From: Serpentinicella alkaliphila
GTDB lineage: Bacteria > Bacillota > Clostridia > Peptostreptococcales > Natronincolaceae
Assembly: GCF_018141405.1 (NCBI RefSeq)
Contig: NZ_CP058648.1
Coordinates: forward strand, 3,173,875 to 3,237,874
Reading direction: 5' to 3'
DNA length: 64,000 nt
Below, piece after piece: positions 39,986-48,052 of the stretch. Position 1 is the first letter of the stretch. Every line of letters begins with the position of its first letter. Made by a program: the position numbers and the translations under genes. Below the pieces are notes generated by a model. It made no database searches. It was given only the letters and a program-made list of their open reading frames with translations, and was not told the DNA's origin.

Positions 39986-40052
39986 TTTATTCTCCTCCTT
40001 TTTTATATTTCAAATGTGCATCAGCACATTTAAAAATGTCCCTAATTATAAC

Positions 40053-40379
40053 TTAAAAACCTATCAATGCGCCGCCATCAACAATTAAAGATGTAACTAT
40101 TTACAAAGTTAGCCGCTTTAGAAACGACATACATAACTACCCTTCCTATATCTTCTGGAGAACCAAAGGCTCTCATGGGCGTCCTACTAAGAATTTTTTT
40201 CTTTCATCATCACACTCTATTGCCTTTTGCATTGGTGTATCCGTCCATATGGAAGTAACTGATTTAACACGAATTCTTTCAGCCAAGACTTCAGTAGCCA
40301 AAATTTGAACCATCTCATGCATAGCTGACTTAAAAGCGGGATAGCCAGTTACATAAGGTACCCCTAGAGGTACCTTCAT
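40053..40379 (-). pseudogene. Short-chain dehydrogenase (SDR) C-terminal remnant
   Basis: The minus strand encodes the second half of an SDR: VTGYPAFKSAMHEMVQIL holds the active-site Tyr and Lys, IRVKSV and TDTPMQKA follow. The reading then needs a frame change near 40185 to continue [20 protein letters not shown] and another near 40090 to reach VDGGALIGF and the stop at 40053. The N-terminal nucleotide-binding half is absent. It lies upstream of dctP, so it may once have been part of the sugar-acid operon. Confidence 0.8.
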
Positions 40380-40695
40380 AGATATAAACTTTCTTATGTA
40401 ATTTCGTATAAGGAATTAGCGCACTCCACGCTCACTTTAGCCTTTATTCCATTAGTAGCTCTAGATATTTTTTTAATATTTTTTCTTTGGTGGGATCAAT
40501 TCATATGTATTTTAAAGATTGAGCAAGGCACGACAACAGCCTTGTCCCTAATATTAAGATATTGAGATGTTAAAAATCATTATGCACTAACAATTTTTCC
40601 GGTGATTACATGACTTAAGAGCCATGGTAAGGTCCTAGAGGTAGGGTCCAAATATGCAGAAAATTTATAGACTCTCTGATATATCACAGATATAT
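40380..40695. other. Intergenic stretch between SDR remnant and IS element
   Basis: About 315 bases with no recognisable coding or RNA signal. It may contain decayed sequence from the missing half of the SDR gene, but I cannot detect it. Confidence 0.35.
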
Positions 40696-42392
40696 TACAG
40701 ACATGAGTTATGCAGTTCGTGTAAATAAATGTAAATAAGACTGATGTATCGTATATTATAATATACTAAAAAATATTTTTGTTTTATATGTCTTGAAATA
40801 GCAAAAAAGACTTGACTTTTTAAACCCGCCCCAATAATCAAAGTGAATGGTATTAATAGCCATTACTCTTGATGAATGGGTGATAAATATGACTCTTGGG
40901 AAACCGAAATATAGAAATTTACAACAAGGAAATGGGGGCGGAACGCCAGTTTTAAAAGCAATTTGGGATAAATTTGATTTTTCACTTCTGCTTACGCAAT
41001 CGGGTATTGTAAAACGTAATGGTGTACCCACTTGGCTTATTGCTTTTGCTTATGTGGTAGGACTTATTGCTAATAAAAATTCTGTCTCACGTATTTCTGA
41101 TTATGCTACTAAGGATAGCTTATTACAACCGATGTTTCGGAATCTTAAAATGGCTCAATATACCTTTAGCCGCTTTTTTACAACTGATTATAATTGGGGT
41201 TTATTTAGTTTTAAAAGAGTACAAAGACTACAACAAGAAGAAGAAACTGCATTTACTGAAGGAGATGTTATTGTACTTGATGATACAAAGGTGGCTCATG
41301 CCCATGGAAAGAAAATCCCTTTCCTTTGTTGGTTATATGATAGCTCCATTAAAATAAATATCTGGTGTATGAATATAGTTGCTACAACTGTTGTATTAAA
41401 GAACGGACTTAAATATCCATTGTTTTGGCGTATTTGGCGTAAGGTAGAAAATAGCGATGAAAAACAGACAAAAATAGATCTTTCAAAAGAAATGCTAATG
41501 GATATTCGCCGGATTTACACAGGGGTACTATGGGTTGCCATGGACCGCCGGTTTTTATGCAAAGACTTTTTAATTGGCTCACAGATCATCAATATGATTG
41601 GGTTACTAAGGCAAAACGTAATACAAACACTTTATCGAAAAGAAATTGAGAATATTACAGGCCGAGAACGCTTTATCCCTGTAAAGCCTTCAATGCTTAT
41701 TAAAGAAGTTTTTTCAAACTTCTTATTAGTGGTGCTAAAGATAAAGTAAGTGCTATATCCATACCTAATATTTATATCAAGTTACCCTACCGTTTAGTTG
41801 GAAAGCAGGGTAAAGTAGTAACTAAGTATCGTTATACGCCTATTGCAAAAGCAGTTGTAGCTACAAGACTCAAAGAAGATACTGAAATGATGAAGGATGA
41901 ATTTGAGAAAAACAAAGAGGTTGCGCTACATATCGTGGGGCTTACCTTTTGATTAGTAATAGGGTCGATAATCCTGAAGAAGCTTTAGATGCATATATTA
42001 AGCGTTGGAGCATTGAGGTTTTTTTTAGAACTGCAAAACAAGAACTGGGGTTGAATTCTTGCCACTCAACGTCGGAAAGTCATCATTACGCCCATATTGA
42101 GCTCATTTTTACAGCAGAAACTTTACTTGTCTATGCAAGATGGGAACTCAATAATAAAGGCGCTGAAGAAGGCTTCACCCACGGCGAAATGGTCCGAAAC
42201 TTTTTCAACGCCACATACCGTATCGTTATAAAAGCACAGCAATGCTTTCAAACTATACAAGTACATTTTGACACAGAAGTTAGGCAATTTGCAAGACTTA
42301 TTGATAAATTTTGGCCGAAGAATTTATTGTTAGGTTGGTTTACTGTGCAAAATTCCCAGTATATGGAGTCAATTGCATAACTCATGTTACAG
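40696..42392 (+). mobile_element. Decayed IS4-like insertion sequence with terminal repeats and 5-bp target duplication
   Basis: Terminal inverted repeats ACATGAGTTATGCA lie at 40701-40714 and, inverted, at 42374-42387, giving an element of 1687 bp. It is flanked by TACAG on both sides (40696-40700 and 42388-42392), a clean target-site duplication. One transposase gene fills it and is frameshifted. The family is a DDE transposase of the IS4/IS701 kind; exact assignment needs a database. Confidence 0.8.
40847..42380 (+). pseudogene. IS4-like DDE transposase, frameshifted
   Basis: An N-terminal frame runs to 41749 with VIVLDDTKVAHAHGKKI (first Asp) and VLWVAMDRRFLCKDFL (second Asp). The last part is in another frame (41949-42380) with RWSIEVFFRTAKQELGLNSC (Glu). 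Between them the frame must change several times: near 41567 and 41630 (where TDHQYDWVTKAKRNT appears in a different frame), near 41735, and near 41930. At least four frame disruptions make it inactive. Confidence 0.8.
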
Positions 42393-44117
42393 ATATAACT
42401 TTATATTATTTTACTAATTTTGTCAATATATTCCTAAAATTAAAAACACCTCTCTTGTTTGTTATTATGTAGCTAAAGAAATATTGAACCTTAATTGACA
42501 GCACATGTGAAAACGTTATTTTTACTTTAATTAAGAGTATAAAAAAATCATAATATTAGGTAACATAATTCTAGATTTTAACTGGATTATTATGGTAATA
42601 TTTAATAGAAAGAAGGTGATTGTATGGTTATCTTAGGTATAATGATGTCTATGATAAATAAATTAGGCATTATAATAATTTTGGCAGTAATAATTTCTAA
42701 GATTGGCATATTTAAGAAGATTATCACAAAAAAAGATGTGACAATCGCTGATAAGATTATATTATCAATTGTATTTGGGGCCATAGGAATCATGGGCACT
42801 TATTCTAGTGTTCCTGTTAATGGAGCTCTTGCTAATACACGTATAGTGGGAGTGATGGTTGGTGCTTTATTAGGGGGTCCAATAGTAGGCTTGTTAGCAG
42901 GATTAATAGCAGGAGGACATCGATTTCTCATTGACATTAGGGGTTTTACAGCTTTAGCCTGTGGAATTTCCACCGTTGTAGAAGGTTTAATTGGTGGATA
43001 TGCTTATTACTACATAATAAATAAAAGAAATAAATGGTATTATGCATTTTACTTTGGAATTTTTGCTGAGATTGTTCAGATGTTGATTATACTAATTATT
43101 GCAAGACCCTTTGCAAGTGCTTTAGCACTTGTAAAAATAATACTATTTCCAATGGTAATCGTAAACTCCTTAGGAATCGCAATTTTTATAGGGATAATAG
43201 AGAATATCTATTTAGAACAGGAAAAAATTGCTGCTAGTCAGGCTGAAAAAGCCTTAAAAATTGCTAATTTGACCCTGCCATTTTTGAGGAAAGGTTTAAA
43301 CTTCCAAGTAGCCCAGATGGTTGTAGATATAATATATAATATTGTCGATGTAGCAGCTGTGGCAATAACCGATACTCATCAAATACTAGCTCATAAGGGC
43401 TTAGGAGAAGATCATCACCTGAGTGGAAGCAATATTTTGACACAGGTAACTCGTTCAGTAATCGACAGTAGACACTATAAAATTATATCTAAAAAGAAGG
43501 GCATAGATTGTGATGTTAAAAGCTGTCAATTGAAGTCTGCGATCGTTGTACCATTAAAGCAACAAGATATTGTAGTTGGAACTTTAAAATTATATAGACA
43601 AGAAGAAAACAGCATAACTTCTTTGGATGTGGAACTAGCTTTGGGTCTTGCACAATTATTTTCTACTCAATTGGAGCTTAGTAGACTTGATTATCAAGAA
43701 AAACTGTTGGTAGAATCAGAGTTAAAAAACCTTCAAGCCCAAATAAATCCGCATTTTCTTTTTAATGCTATTAACACTATTGTATCCTTTATCCAAATAG
43801 ACAGTTCTAAAGCAAAAGCTCTTTTAATCTCTCTAGCAGATTTGTTTAGAAAGAGTCTTAAGAATCGTCAAGAACTGGTAGATTTAACAACAGAATTAGA
43901 ACATATTGCCTCTTACCTAGAAATAGAGAGAGCAAGATTCGGAGATAAACTAAAAGTAAACTATCAGCTAGAGGAAGGACTAAACTGTCAGTTGCCACCC
44001 CTTATCCTTCAGCCAATAGTTGAAAATGCAGTAATTCACGGAATTTTTGGTACTATGTCAAGAAAAAGTACAAGTTAAATTAGGATTTTCTTAATATTTT
44101 CATCATTCAACATTATG

Positions 44118-45030
44118 TCAACTCGCTTCTTGGTATAATTTGCTTAGCTCCTTGTTATATTCAGCTTCATACTGATTTGGAGATAAATATCCACAATGGC
44201 TATGTATTCTTACTGTATTATAAAATGCTTCTATATAGTTAAAAACCAATCGATATGCATGATTATAATCTAATATCTTGAATCTATTTATCCACTCTCT
44301 TTTAATTAATGCATGGAATGATTCTATACATGCATTATCCCATGGATTAGCTTTCCTAGAATAACTATTTATAAATTTTTCTGTAGATTTTTGATATCTT
44401 TGTACATGTATATTGCACCCCGCGATCTGAATGCATAACTAATGGTTTACTTATATTCCGTGATGCCTTGGCTTTATTAATTGCTTCTATTACCCATTTT
44501 GCTTCTAGGGTAGTACTAAGCACCCAAGATATTATTTTTCTTGAATACAGGTCCATTATACTAGTTAAATATACAAACCCTTCATAGGTCCAAATATATG
44601 TAATATCAGAACACCATACTGCGTTTGGTTCGGATGGGTTAAATTCCTTATTCAATATATTAGTAAGTTCCTCACTAAAATTCGAATCTATTGTTGTAAC
44701 CGTATAAGGCTTTACATATTGGGCTTTTATTCCCATTTCTCTCATATAATTACCTACTGTTTTTTCTGATATGGTTTCTCCATTTTGTTGTAATCGCCGT
44801 GTGTTATTTTAGGAGCTCCATAGTTCTGATAAGACTCATCATGTATTTGCTTAATTTGAACCTTTATATATTCTTTTCTTTTATTCATATCAGAAGGAAC
44901 CCTTCTCTTAAAGGAATTATAACCACTCCTAGAAACGCCTAGTATTTTAAGCACTCCGCTAACATTAAGCCGGCGTTTTCCCTCTTCATTTAATTCATCT
45001 TCCTTTTGGGATGTTTCTATAAAGAGAGCC
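44118..45030 (-). pseudogene. IS3-family transposase OrfB (rve integrase), frameshifted
   Basis: Reading the minus strand: an HTH_21-like start (GVLKILGVSRSGYNSFKRR) to YGAPKITH, a frame change near 44806, then QQNGETISEKTVGNYMREMG and the DDE core with AVWCSDITYIWT (Asp) and MHSDRGVQYTC (Asp). A second frame change near 44398 leads to NPWDNACIESFHALIKREW (Glu) and the C terminus at 44118. Two frameshifts inactivate it. Confidence 0.85.
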
Positions 45031-45034
45031 TCTG

Positions 45035-45322
45035 TTAGTTTCCCAGAATGCTGATTGCCTTTTTTAGTATTTCTAATGCATCCTGCGCATCTCTTAACTC
45101 TTTACGTAGTCTTGCATTTTCTTTAGCTTCATCACTTTGGTAATTACCAGATCCTCTCGTAGGCACCTCACCATTATTTGACTTTGATTCTTTTACCCAA
45201 GCTGATAATGCTGTTCTACTTACCCCCAAATTCTTTGCACAAACCATTAATCCTAAGTCTTTATGCTCTAAATAGTACCTAGCTGCATCCTCTTTAAATT
45301 CTTTTGTATACTGTTTACTCAT
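45035..45322 (-). CDS. IS3-family transposase OrfA (helix-turn-helix)
   Basis: About 95 residues from the ATG at 45322, preceded by GGAGG. MSKQYTKEFKEDAARYYLEH and LGVSRTALSAWVKESK form the HTH_Tnp_1 domain; the C terminus (LRKELRDAQDALEILKKAISIL) is the leucine-zipper coiled coil typical of IS3 OrfA. Intact, but its partner OrfB is broken, so the element cannot move alone. Confidence 0.85.
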   Translation of the reverse strand: MSKQYTKEFKEDAARYYLEHKDLGLMVCAKNLGVSRTALSAWVKESKSNNGEVPTRGSGNYQSDEAKENARLRKELRDAQDALEILKKAISILGN

Positions 45323-45690
45323 GTCTATTCCTCCATCTTTCACTAATTTCATTATAACTTTATTTTTGGAATTTTCCACTTTCAACTTGTACTATTTATA
45401 TTCTAGCACCATTTACCTAAAACCATTGGTGGCTCTATTACCATAAAATCTAAACAGAAATTGCAAGATATTATTTTGGAAGTCATTGATGATGGAGTGG
45501 GTATGGATTGGGAACCCTTAAATAGACTGATGGACGAGAAAAACGATAACAAATCTATTGGTATTAAAAATGTGAATAAAAGATTAGTTAATCTTTACGG
45601 TGAGGACTATTGCTTAACTGTAGACAGTAAAATAAACGAAGGGACCTGTGTACAAATTAGAATTCCATTATATACTTAGGGGGTGGTAGT

Positions 45691-46461
45691 ATGCCTTATC
45701 AAGTAGTGATTGTTGATGACGAAATGCCAGCAAGAATGAATATTTTAAACTTAATTTCACAACACGATGATTTTGTAGTTGTCGGTGAGGCTTCAAGTGG
45801 TACAGAAGCAGTTAAGTTATGCGAAAAAGCTATGCCAGATATTGTTTTTTTAGATATACAATTACAGGACATGACTGGTTTAGATGTTGCTGCTATGTTA
45901 ATCAAGCTACCATCACATCCAAAAATTGTTTTTGTAACAGCCTTTAATGAGTACGCAATAAAAGCCTTTGAATTCTCTGTAGTAGATTATTTACTGAAGC
46001 CTATAGATGAAAAAAGATTTATAATGACCATAAACAAACTTAGGAGAGAGGTAAAATACTCAAGTCAGACTACTATAGATGCAGTTCACATCCTCATAAA
46101 AAAACATTTACAACTAGAGCATTCCAAACAAAAGATTTCCTTAGAAAAGGACGGAAAGCTTTTTGTATTGTCCCCTAGGGATATTATATATATTGAAACA
46201 AGTAATCGAAATACAAAAGTAATTAGCAGCAGAGGTGACTTTATTTCATCTTTGTCTATATCAGACTGGGACGAGAGATTGCAGGAGCATGGCTTTTTTC
46301 GACCCCATCGAAGTTTTTTAATCAATTTAGACGAAATAGATGAGATCATACTATGGTTTCACAATAGCCTACAAATAAAAATGCGAGGACATAAAAATAA
46401 TATTCCTATAAGCCGAAATAAACTTAAGGAGTTTAAAGAAAAGGTAGGATTAGAAAACTAA
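45691..46461 (+). CDS. LytTR-family response regulator
   Basis: A 256-residue response regulator. The receiver domain has the acidic pair (VIVDDEMPA), the phospho-acceptor Asp at residue 55 (PDIVFLDIQLQDM) and the conserved Lys in DYLLKPID. The LytTR DNA-binding domain occupies the last 100 residues (ISLEKDGKLFVLSPRDIIYI, FFRPHRSFLINLDEIDEI). It lies 11 nt after the kinase tail and just before a CstA-type transporter gene, like the BtsSR-BtsT arrangement. With its kinase disrupted, its activation must be absent or come from another source. Confidence 0.92.
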   Translation: MPYQVVIVDDEMPARMNILNLISQHDDFVVVGEASSGTEAVKLCEKAMPDIVFLDIQLQDMTGLDVAAMLIKLPSHPKIVFVTAFNEYAIKAFEFSVVDYLLKPIDEKRFIMTINKLRREVKYSSQTTIDAVHILIKKHLQLEHSKQKISLEKDGKLFVLSPRDIIYIETSNRNTKVISSRGDFISSLSISDWDERLQEHGFFRPHRSFLINLDEIDEIILWFHNSLQIKMRGHKNNIPISRNKLKEFKEKVGLEN

Positions 46462-46481
46462 AATCATATTATTCAATATAT

Positions 46482-46510
46482 TTGACATTTTAAACATAAT
46501 AAAATACATT
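46482..46510 (+). promoter_or_regulatory. Possible promoter of the cstA-type gene
   Basis: TTGACA (46482-46487), a 17-bp spacer, then TACATT (46505-46510). A second -10-like TATAAT is at 46547-46552. The gap to the gene is about 110 bp. Confidence 0.45.
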
Positions 46511-46519
46511 TTGTGCAGA

Positions 46520-46537: not shown

Positions 46538-46621
46538 ATTTACTTATATAATATTCCTGAGTACTTACAATATTCAAGCATGATATCTCTAAGTGCTTAC
46601 CAAATTATGGGGGGTTAAGTT

Positions 46622-48052
46622 ATGGAATTATTTTTATTGTCTGTTGTCGCTTTAATAGTTGGCTATGTTTTTTATGGAAGATTTGTGGATAAGTCTTTTG
46701 GAACAAAAGAAGAAAGACAAACTCCTGCATTATCCATGAAGGATGATGTTGACTATGTACCAATGCCTTGGTATAAAATTTTCTTAATCCAGTTTTTAAA
46801 TATAGCTGGTTTAGGTCCGATTTTCGGGGCAGTAGCAGGTGCTTTGTGGGGACCAAAGGCTTTCCTTTGGATTGTTTTAGGAAGTATATTTGCTGGTGGA
46901 GTACATGACTATTTTTCAGGAATGCTTTCCATTAGAAATAATGGTGCTTCTGTATCAGAAATCGTTGGAATATATTTAGGAAATGGTGCAAAACAGTTCA
47001 TGAGGGTTTTCTCAATTGTGTTATTAGTTCTTGTTGGGACGGTTTTTATGACAGGGCCAGCAAGACTTTTGGGGAATCTAAACTTTTTAGGAATACAAAA
47101 TTACCAAGTTTGGCTAGGAATTATATTAGTTTACTATTTCCTTGCTACCATCCTTCCAGTGGATAAAGTAATTGGTAAAATATATCCTATTTTTGGGGCA
47201 GTTCTTTTGATAATGGCCGTTGGTATCGGCAGTATGCTAGTTATTAGAGGATATCAAATCCCGGCGCTTGGATTAGAAAATATTCATCCTAGAAATTTAC
47301 CTATATGGCCCTTGATGTTCATAACCATTGCATGTGGTGCAATCAGTGGATTCCATGCAACACAATCACCTCTTATGGCAAGATGTGTTGAAAATGAAAG
47401 ATATGGTCGAAAGATTTTTTATGGTTCTATGATTGCCGAAGGAGTAATCGCCTTAATTTGGGCAGCAGCAGCCATGAGCTTTTATAACGGTACTGAGGGC
47501 TTAGCAGTAGCAAGTTCTGCAGGAGGTCCCGGAGCAGTAGTATATGAAATATCAATTGCTTTACTAGGAGGATTTGGTGGTCTACTAGCGATGCTTGGAG
47601 TAATCGTCTGCCCAATTACTTCTGGTGATACAGCATTTAGAAGTGCCCGATTAGTAATTGCAGATTTCATGAAGTCAAATCAAACACCTATATCAAAGAG
47701 ATTATTATTAGCTATTCCTTTATTCGTAGTGGGCTTTAGTTTAAGCTTAATTGATTTTAATATTATTTGGAGATATTTTGCATGGTCTAATCAAACTTTA
47801 GCAACAATCATGCTATGGGCAGCCGCAGCCTACTTAGGCTACAGTAAAAAAAATCACTGGATTGCAACAATACCAGCGACCTTTATGACTGGCGTAGTCA
47901 CCACATATATTCTACAAGCCCCTGAAGGCTTCAAACTTTCGACCTCAATCTCATATCCTGTTGGGCTGGGAGCAGCAGCAATTGCTTTAGGAGTATTTAT
48001 GTATAAAATAAAGAGCTACTCTGGAAATAAACCTTTAGAAGCAGAAGCATAA
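46622..48052 (+). CDS. CstA-family carbon-starvation transporter (short form)
   Basis: A 476-residue, multi-pass membrane protein of the CstA family, shorter than the 700-residue E. coli CstA/BtsT. GPIFGAVAGALWGPKAFLWI, GGVHDYFSGMLSIRN and GFHATQSPLMARC are hallmark motifs. E. coli members take up pyruvate or peptides. The ATG follows GGGGGGTTAAGTT. Its position behind a LytS/LytTR pair suggests regulation by it, as BtsSR regulates BtsT; pyruvate is thus a reasonable but unproven substrate. Confidence 0.88.
   Translation: MELFLLSVVALIVGYVFYGRFVDKSFGTKEERQTPALSMKDDVDYVPMPWYKIFLIQFLNIAGLGPIFGAVAGALWGPKAFLWIVLGSIFAGGVHDYFSGMLSIRNNGASVSEIVGIYLGNGAKQFMRVFSIVLLVLVGTVFMTGPARLLGNLNFLGIQNYQVWLGIILVYYFLATILPVDKVIGKIYPIFGAVLLIMAVGIGSMLVIRGYQIPALGLENIHPRNLPIWPLMFITIACGAISGFHATQSPLMARCVENERYGRKIFYGSMIAEGVIALIWAAAAMSFYNGTEGLAVASSAGGPGAVVYEISIALLGGFGGLLAMLGVIVCPITSGDTAFRSARLVIADFMKSNQTPISKRLLLAIPLFVVGFSLSLIDFNIIWRYFAWSNQTLATIMLWAAAAYLGYSKKNHWIATIPATFMTGVVTTYILQAPEGFKLSTSISYPVGLGAAAIALGVFMYKIKSYSGNKPLEAEA

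Follow-up and report, generated by a model that had tools for sequence, protein, structure and literature searches.

A LytS-type sensor kinase gene interrupted by an IS3-family element in Serpentinicella alkaliphila, with adjoining LytTR regulator and CstA-family transporter genes intact

If a two-component system loses its sensor but keeps its regulator and target gene, how is the target controlled from then on? A locus of Serpentinicella alkaliphila, located in a 64,000-nt stretch of DNA analyzed here as a whole (the window), raises this question. We found that its LytS-type kinase gene is split by an IS3-family element (44048–45411; transposase on the [−] strand), which is flanked on both sides by TTT (44045–44047 and 45412–45414). 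Deleting the element and one TTT in silico yielded a kinase frame of 562 residues that contains no stop and reads GILPKTIGGS. The original prediction had described both the split with its 3-bp duplication and the restored frame; the former is corroborated by the exact element ends, the TTT repeat and the sister copies of the element, and the latter was reproduced, and 27 related loci align with it through the junction.

The upstream part of the kinase (42624–44047, [+] strand) comprises the 5TM-5TMR_LYT, GAF, and His_kinase domains (Pfam PF07694, PF01590, and PF06580), as also seen in an alignment with BtsS and its relatives; its frame, starting at 42624, continues into the element and reaches a stop at 44078. 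The downstream part (45415–45679, [+] strand) contains the rest of HATPase_c (PF02518) with the G boxes, giving the joined kinase the order 5TM-5TMR_LYT, GAF, His_kinase, and HATPase, while no NCBIfam profile matched the kinase. Specifically, His377 and the N box (VENAVIHG) both reside in the upstream part, and the break falls 3′ of the N box and 5′ of the G boxes, in agreement with the earlier proposal that the phospho-accepting His is cut off from most of the ATP-binding domain. A start-codon scan of the downstream part revealed in-frame candidates without an evident ribosome-binding site, so that a split kinase that still works is unlikely. Since the His and N box are on one frame and the remaining ATP-binding part on another that has no evident start, the kinase is expected to be incapable of autophosphorylation, an anatomy that is observed and a loss of activity that we infer from it. 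RNA structure around the downstream part did not exceed that of shuffled sequences (z = 0.30). A candidate CcpA-type cre site 117 bp before the kinase ATG (13 of 16 positions) was rejected, as 17% of shuffles scored equally and the site is not conserved.

The insertion is a genuine transposition and not a chance repeat, as judged from the shared ends, the sister copies, and the duplications at three of these. The genome, assembled as one contig (3.26 Mb, 99.76% complete), contains four other full copies of the element (99–100% identity) and two partial pieces. All full copies have the same ends, and reading the flanks of the four others revealed duplications of AAC, ATAC, and GTC at three and none at the fourth (L002). 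OrfA (45035–45385, [−] strand; HTH_Tnp_1 in Pfam) has near its end an AAAAAAG slippery site (A6G type; 45059–45065, [−] strand) for the predicted programmed shift to OrfB, which lies in the −1 frame relative to OrfA; such a shift between orfA and orfB is the normal arrangement in IS3 elements. The OrfB of a sister copy scored 278 bits against the NCBIfam profile NF033516 (transpos_IS3; cut-off, 160). An assembly chimera is a scarcely credible origin of the inserted copy: the internal frameshifts of this copy do look like errors in an unpolished repeat, but, like other copies in the genome, it is bounded by exact ends and a target duplication, and a chimera would create no duplication at its junctions. 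Also highly improbable is an on/off switch of the kinase, with only a fraction of the population carrying the insertion or with the element excising precisely. The clean 3-bp duplication and the four sister copies with an intact OrfB, which might allow excision in trans, would suit such a switch, but the assembly has the filled site only, and IS3-family elements rarely excise precisely.

In the deposited sequence, the OrfB of the copy within the kinase does carry the two frameshifts noted in the original prediction, which read them as signs of an old insertion; it appears as three frames (115, 147, and 106), whereas all four sister copies have the 326-codon frame intact. Our comparison of copies does not support such an age. 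The alignment of the kinase copy with its nearest sister (L002) contains two substitutions besides the two indels, and the only changes private to the kinase copy are the two OrfB lesions, both on ACAGC, a motif occurring three times in the 1361-bp element. At 44398–44401 ([−] strand), ACAGC reads ACAAAG, and at 44798–44799 ([−] strand), a CG is inserted at the motif; both lesions are probably sequence errors, and they resemble the garbling found in most copies of a second repeat in this assembly.

This other repeat is a second IS (40702–42386, [+] strand; about 1685 bp, IS701/IS4-like) that is present in at least 19 copies and was absent from the original prediction. It has the ends CATGAGTTATGCAG and a perfect 7-bp duplication, TTACAGA (40695–40701 and 42387–42393), and its end lies ~230 bp before the start of the kinase; all of its matches to NCBIfam profiles were below cut-off. 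Only 2 of the 19 copies examined (L052–L070) show an intact 510-codon transposase frame, and the other 17 are garbled, mostly centrally. The central 400 bp accounts for 19 of the 28 indel columns and 25 of the 37 substitution columns (binomial, 8e-7 and 2e-8, respectively, on the only partly justified assumption that columns are independent). At the ACAGC site of this element, nine copies agree; the other ten are garbled, with nine different strings among them, and some of these include ACAAAG, just as the OrfB of the kinase copy does. Where the window is single-copy, its frames are long and ordinary. Differences among copies thus cluster in the centers of the elements, several of them at ACAGC, and resemble long-read error tied to particular motifs, in repeats left unpolished. 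Adjoining the second IS, at 40030–40400 on the (−) strand, is a short-chain dehydrogenase-like remnant, apparently a pseudogene.

The OrfB frameshifts are most simply read as long-read errors left behind in repeats beyond the reach of short-read polishing, with real mutation being possible. An old insertion and a kinase that has long been a pseudogene, as first supposed, would account for the two frameshifts in the deposited sequence, but motif-specific error explains them as well, and the nearest sister copy is only two substitutions away. Moreover, neither the upstream nor the downstream kinase half contains a frame lesion, and we saw no accelerated evolution: for each half, and likewise for the regulator, the window's terminal branch is of unremarkable length. 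An old insertion is very unlikely on these grounds, and the event is best called recent on an evolutionary scale, as inferred from the same comparisons. As a practical lesson, frameshifts inside multicopy elements of this assembly are unfit for dating insertions.

Next, the locus was compared with its relatives. By tblastn against members of the same family and order, the joined kinase aligned in one piece over the junction with every one of the 27 related loci, each uninterrupted and followed by a LytTR regulator. The junction in the closest relatives reads VENAVIHGILPK, the same as the joined frame. A complete CstA-type gene was also present in the two relatives with long flanks, L049 (an uncultured Alkaliphilus MAG) and L050 (a Clostridiaceae MAG). 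Both have the gene order of the window but without the insertion, and their identity to the window is 72–73% for the kinase, 66–67% for the regulator, and 78–79% for CstA. A scan of genome contigs yielded two close relatives and one distant one. Four other loci (L010, L013, L018, and L021) have, after the kinase/regulator pair, a small gene starting MIHAEVSLYPLK and not cstA; we take its product to be a thiamine-binding protein of the MTH1187/YkoF type. Kinase/regulator pairs without cstA downstream suggest a different regulon.

Downstream of the insertion, the response regulator (45691–46461, [+] strand) has Response_reg (PF00072) and LytTR (PF04397) domains, with the acidic pocket and the phospho-acceptor preserved (D9, D10, D55, T83, and K103). 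The CstA-family transporter (46622–48052, [+] strand), a single-copy gene, scored 195.6 bits against PF02554 (cut-off, 27) and 88.5 bits against the E. coli-type CstA equivalog NF011590, which is below that profile's cut-off of 1188. Both genes are intact, as stated in the original prediction. Between them lies a putative LytTR operator (46484–46516, [+] strand) composed of GACATTTTAAAC and TACATTTTGTGC, 21 bp apart, a spacing conserved in relatives; the TATAAT of a putative cstA-type promoter (46547–46552, [+] strand) is located 63 bp from the start of the first repeat. Among 11 promoters of this kind, self-match at 21 bp exceeded that at all other spacings (mean of 7.45 out of 9 compared with 5.55–6.45). 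The motif pair at this spacing occurred in 5 of the 11 promoters, compared with 0.01 expected in shuffles, an excess that is biased upward because the motif was written after viewing these promoters, the spacing scan being less affected. LytTR sites have been described as two repeats of 9–11 nt with spacers of 11–13 nt, and the E. coli YehT site quoted in the same work has the same 21-bp period (PMC4847170); the spacing of the window operator agrees with these sites. As read from the DNA, the kinase is the broken part of the system, and the regulator, putative operator, and target are intact.

Could another kinase replace the lost one? A search of the genome for an intact copy of the kinase in the same strain found none: the protein has no second copy or paralogue matching it, and the interrupted gene is the single PF06580 kinase, with no other of the LytS type. 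Two LytTR domains are encoded in the genome, and the other regulator belongs to an Agr-type locus. In that locus (L039, 125–3178; near 408 kb in its own genome), its neighbors are an AgrC-like kinase and an AgrB-like protein, both named by eye from their sequences. Cross-talk from the Agr-type locus is unlikely. Because the genome has no other LytS-type kinase and the only other LytTR regulator is in this Agr-type locus, the regulator is, on gene content, orphaned in this strain.

We therefore favor, with a probability of roughly 85%, a BtsSR-like sensor recently knocked out by IS3 transposition, leaving the kinase dead and the transporter uninduced at a basal level. The steps would be that a multicopy IS3-family element transposed into the sensor gene recently on an evolutionary scale; that the kinase could then no longer phosphorylate itself, with no other LytS-type kinase to replace it; and that the regulator, putative operator, and transporter gene would remain, with the transporter no longer induced by its external signal, probably pyruvate. 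Acetyl phosphate, another kinase, or basal activity may nevertheless drive the regulator. A regulator kept active without its kinase, through a small-molecule donor, a non-cognate kinase, or transcription from the IS, would make the transporter constitutive. The intact state of the regulator, putative operator, promoter, and transporter is compatible with this alternative, as is a weak promoter-like site (TTTCCA-18-TATATT; 45373–45402, [+] strand) at the right end of the IS pointing toward the regulator; the transposase itself is transcribed away from it. However, promoter-like sites are at chance level (22 found, 24.3 expected from shuffles), and with an insertion that looks recent, intact parts do not show use, so we regard this alternative as unlikely. 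It is doubtful, too, that the orphaned regulator is functional, by another phosphate donor or constitutively, with a signal-inducible transporter rewired to constitutive expression.

Under the favored reading of a recent knock-out, the strain offers a natural loss of the kinase beside an intact regulator, putative operator, and transporter, and could serve to study how a BtsR-like regulator behaves on its own. In other respects this is an ordinary knock-out, and IS insertions are numerous in this IS-rich genome. Chance disruption of genes by IS is expected here, since the two elements are present in at least 19 and in 5 copies.

With regard to known systems, the element shares with the IS3 family an OrfA/OrfB arrangement with an A6G slippery site, imperfect TGGT..ACCA ends, and 3- to 4-bp duplications, and differs in nothing noteworthy except that the OrfB of the kinase copy reads as frameshifted. 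The locus is best explained as a BtsS/BtsR-like two-component system in an Alkaliphilus-related bacterium of the Clostridia. Pyruvate binding by the BtsS of E. coli is mediated by Arg72, Arg99, Cys110, and Ser113 (PMC10653868), and target expression in E. coli is affected both by His382 of the kinase and by the Asp of the receiver (PMC3875573). In our alignment, R72, R99, C110, S113, and H382 correspond to R73, R100, C113, S116, and H377 of the window kinase. As all four pyruvate-binding residues are present, the uninterrupted kinase would probably sense pyruvate and switch on a pyruvate transporter. These residues do vary, since L018 and L021, in which no CstA gene follows, lack two of the four, with T in place of the first and S in place of the third. 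The regulator scored 177.7 bits against the BtsR equivalog NF008677, below its cut-off of 246, and is accordingly termed BtsR-like and not assigned to BtsR. Overall, the window resembles BtsS/BtsR-BtsT (YehU/YehT-YjiY) of E. coli in kinase domain order, in the four pyruvate-site residues, in having a receiver-LytTR regulator and a CstA-family target, and in the direct repeats with a 21-bp period upstream of the target. It differs in that the transporter gene adjoins the pair, the kinase is interrupted, the upstream kinase part is about 40% identical, and the operator letters are ACATTTT as against ACCGCTTA.
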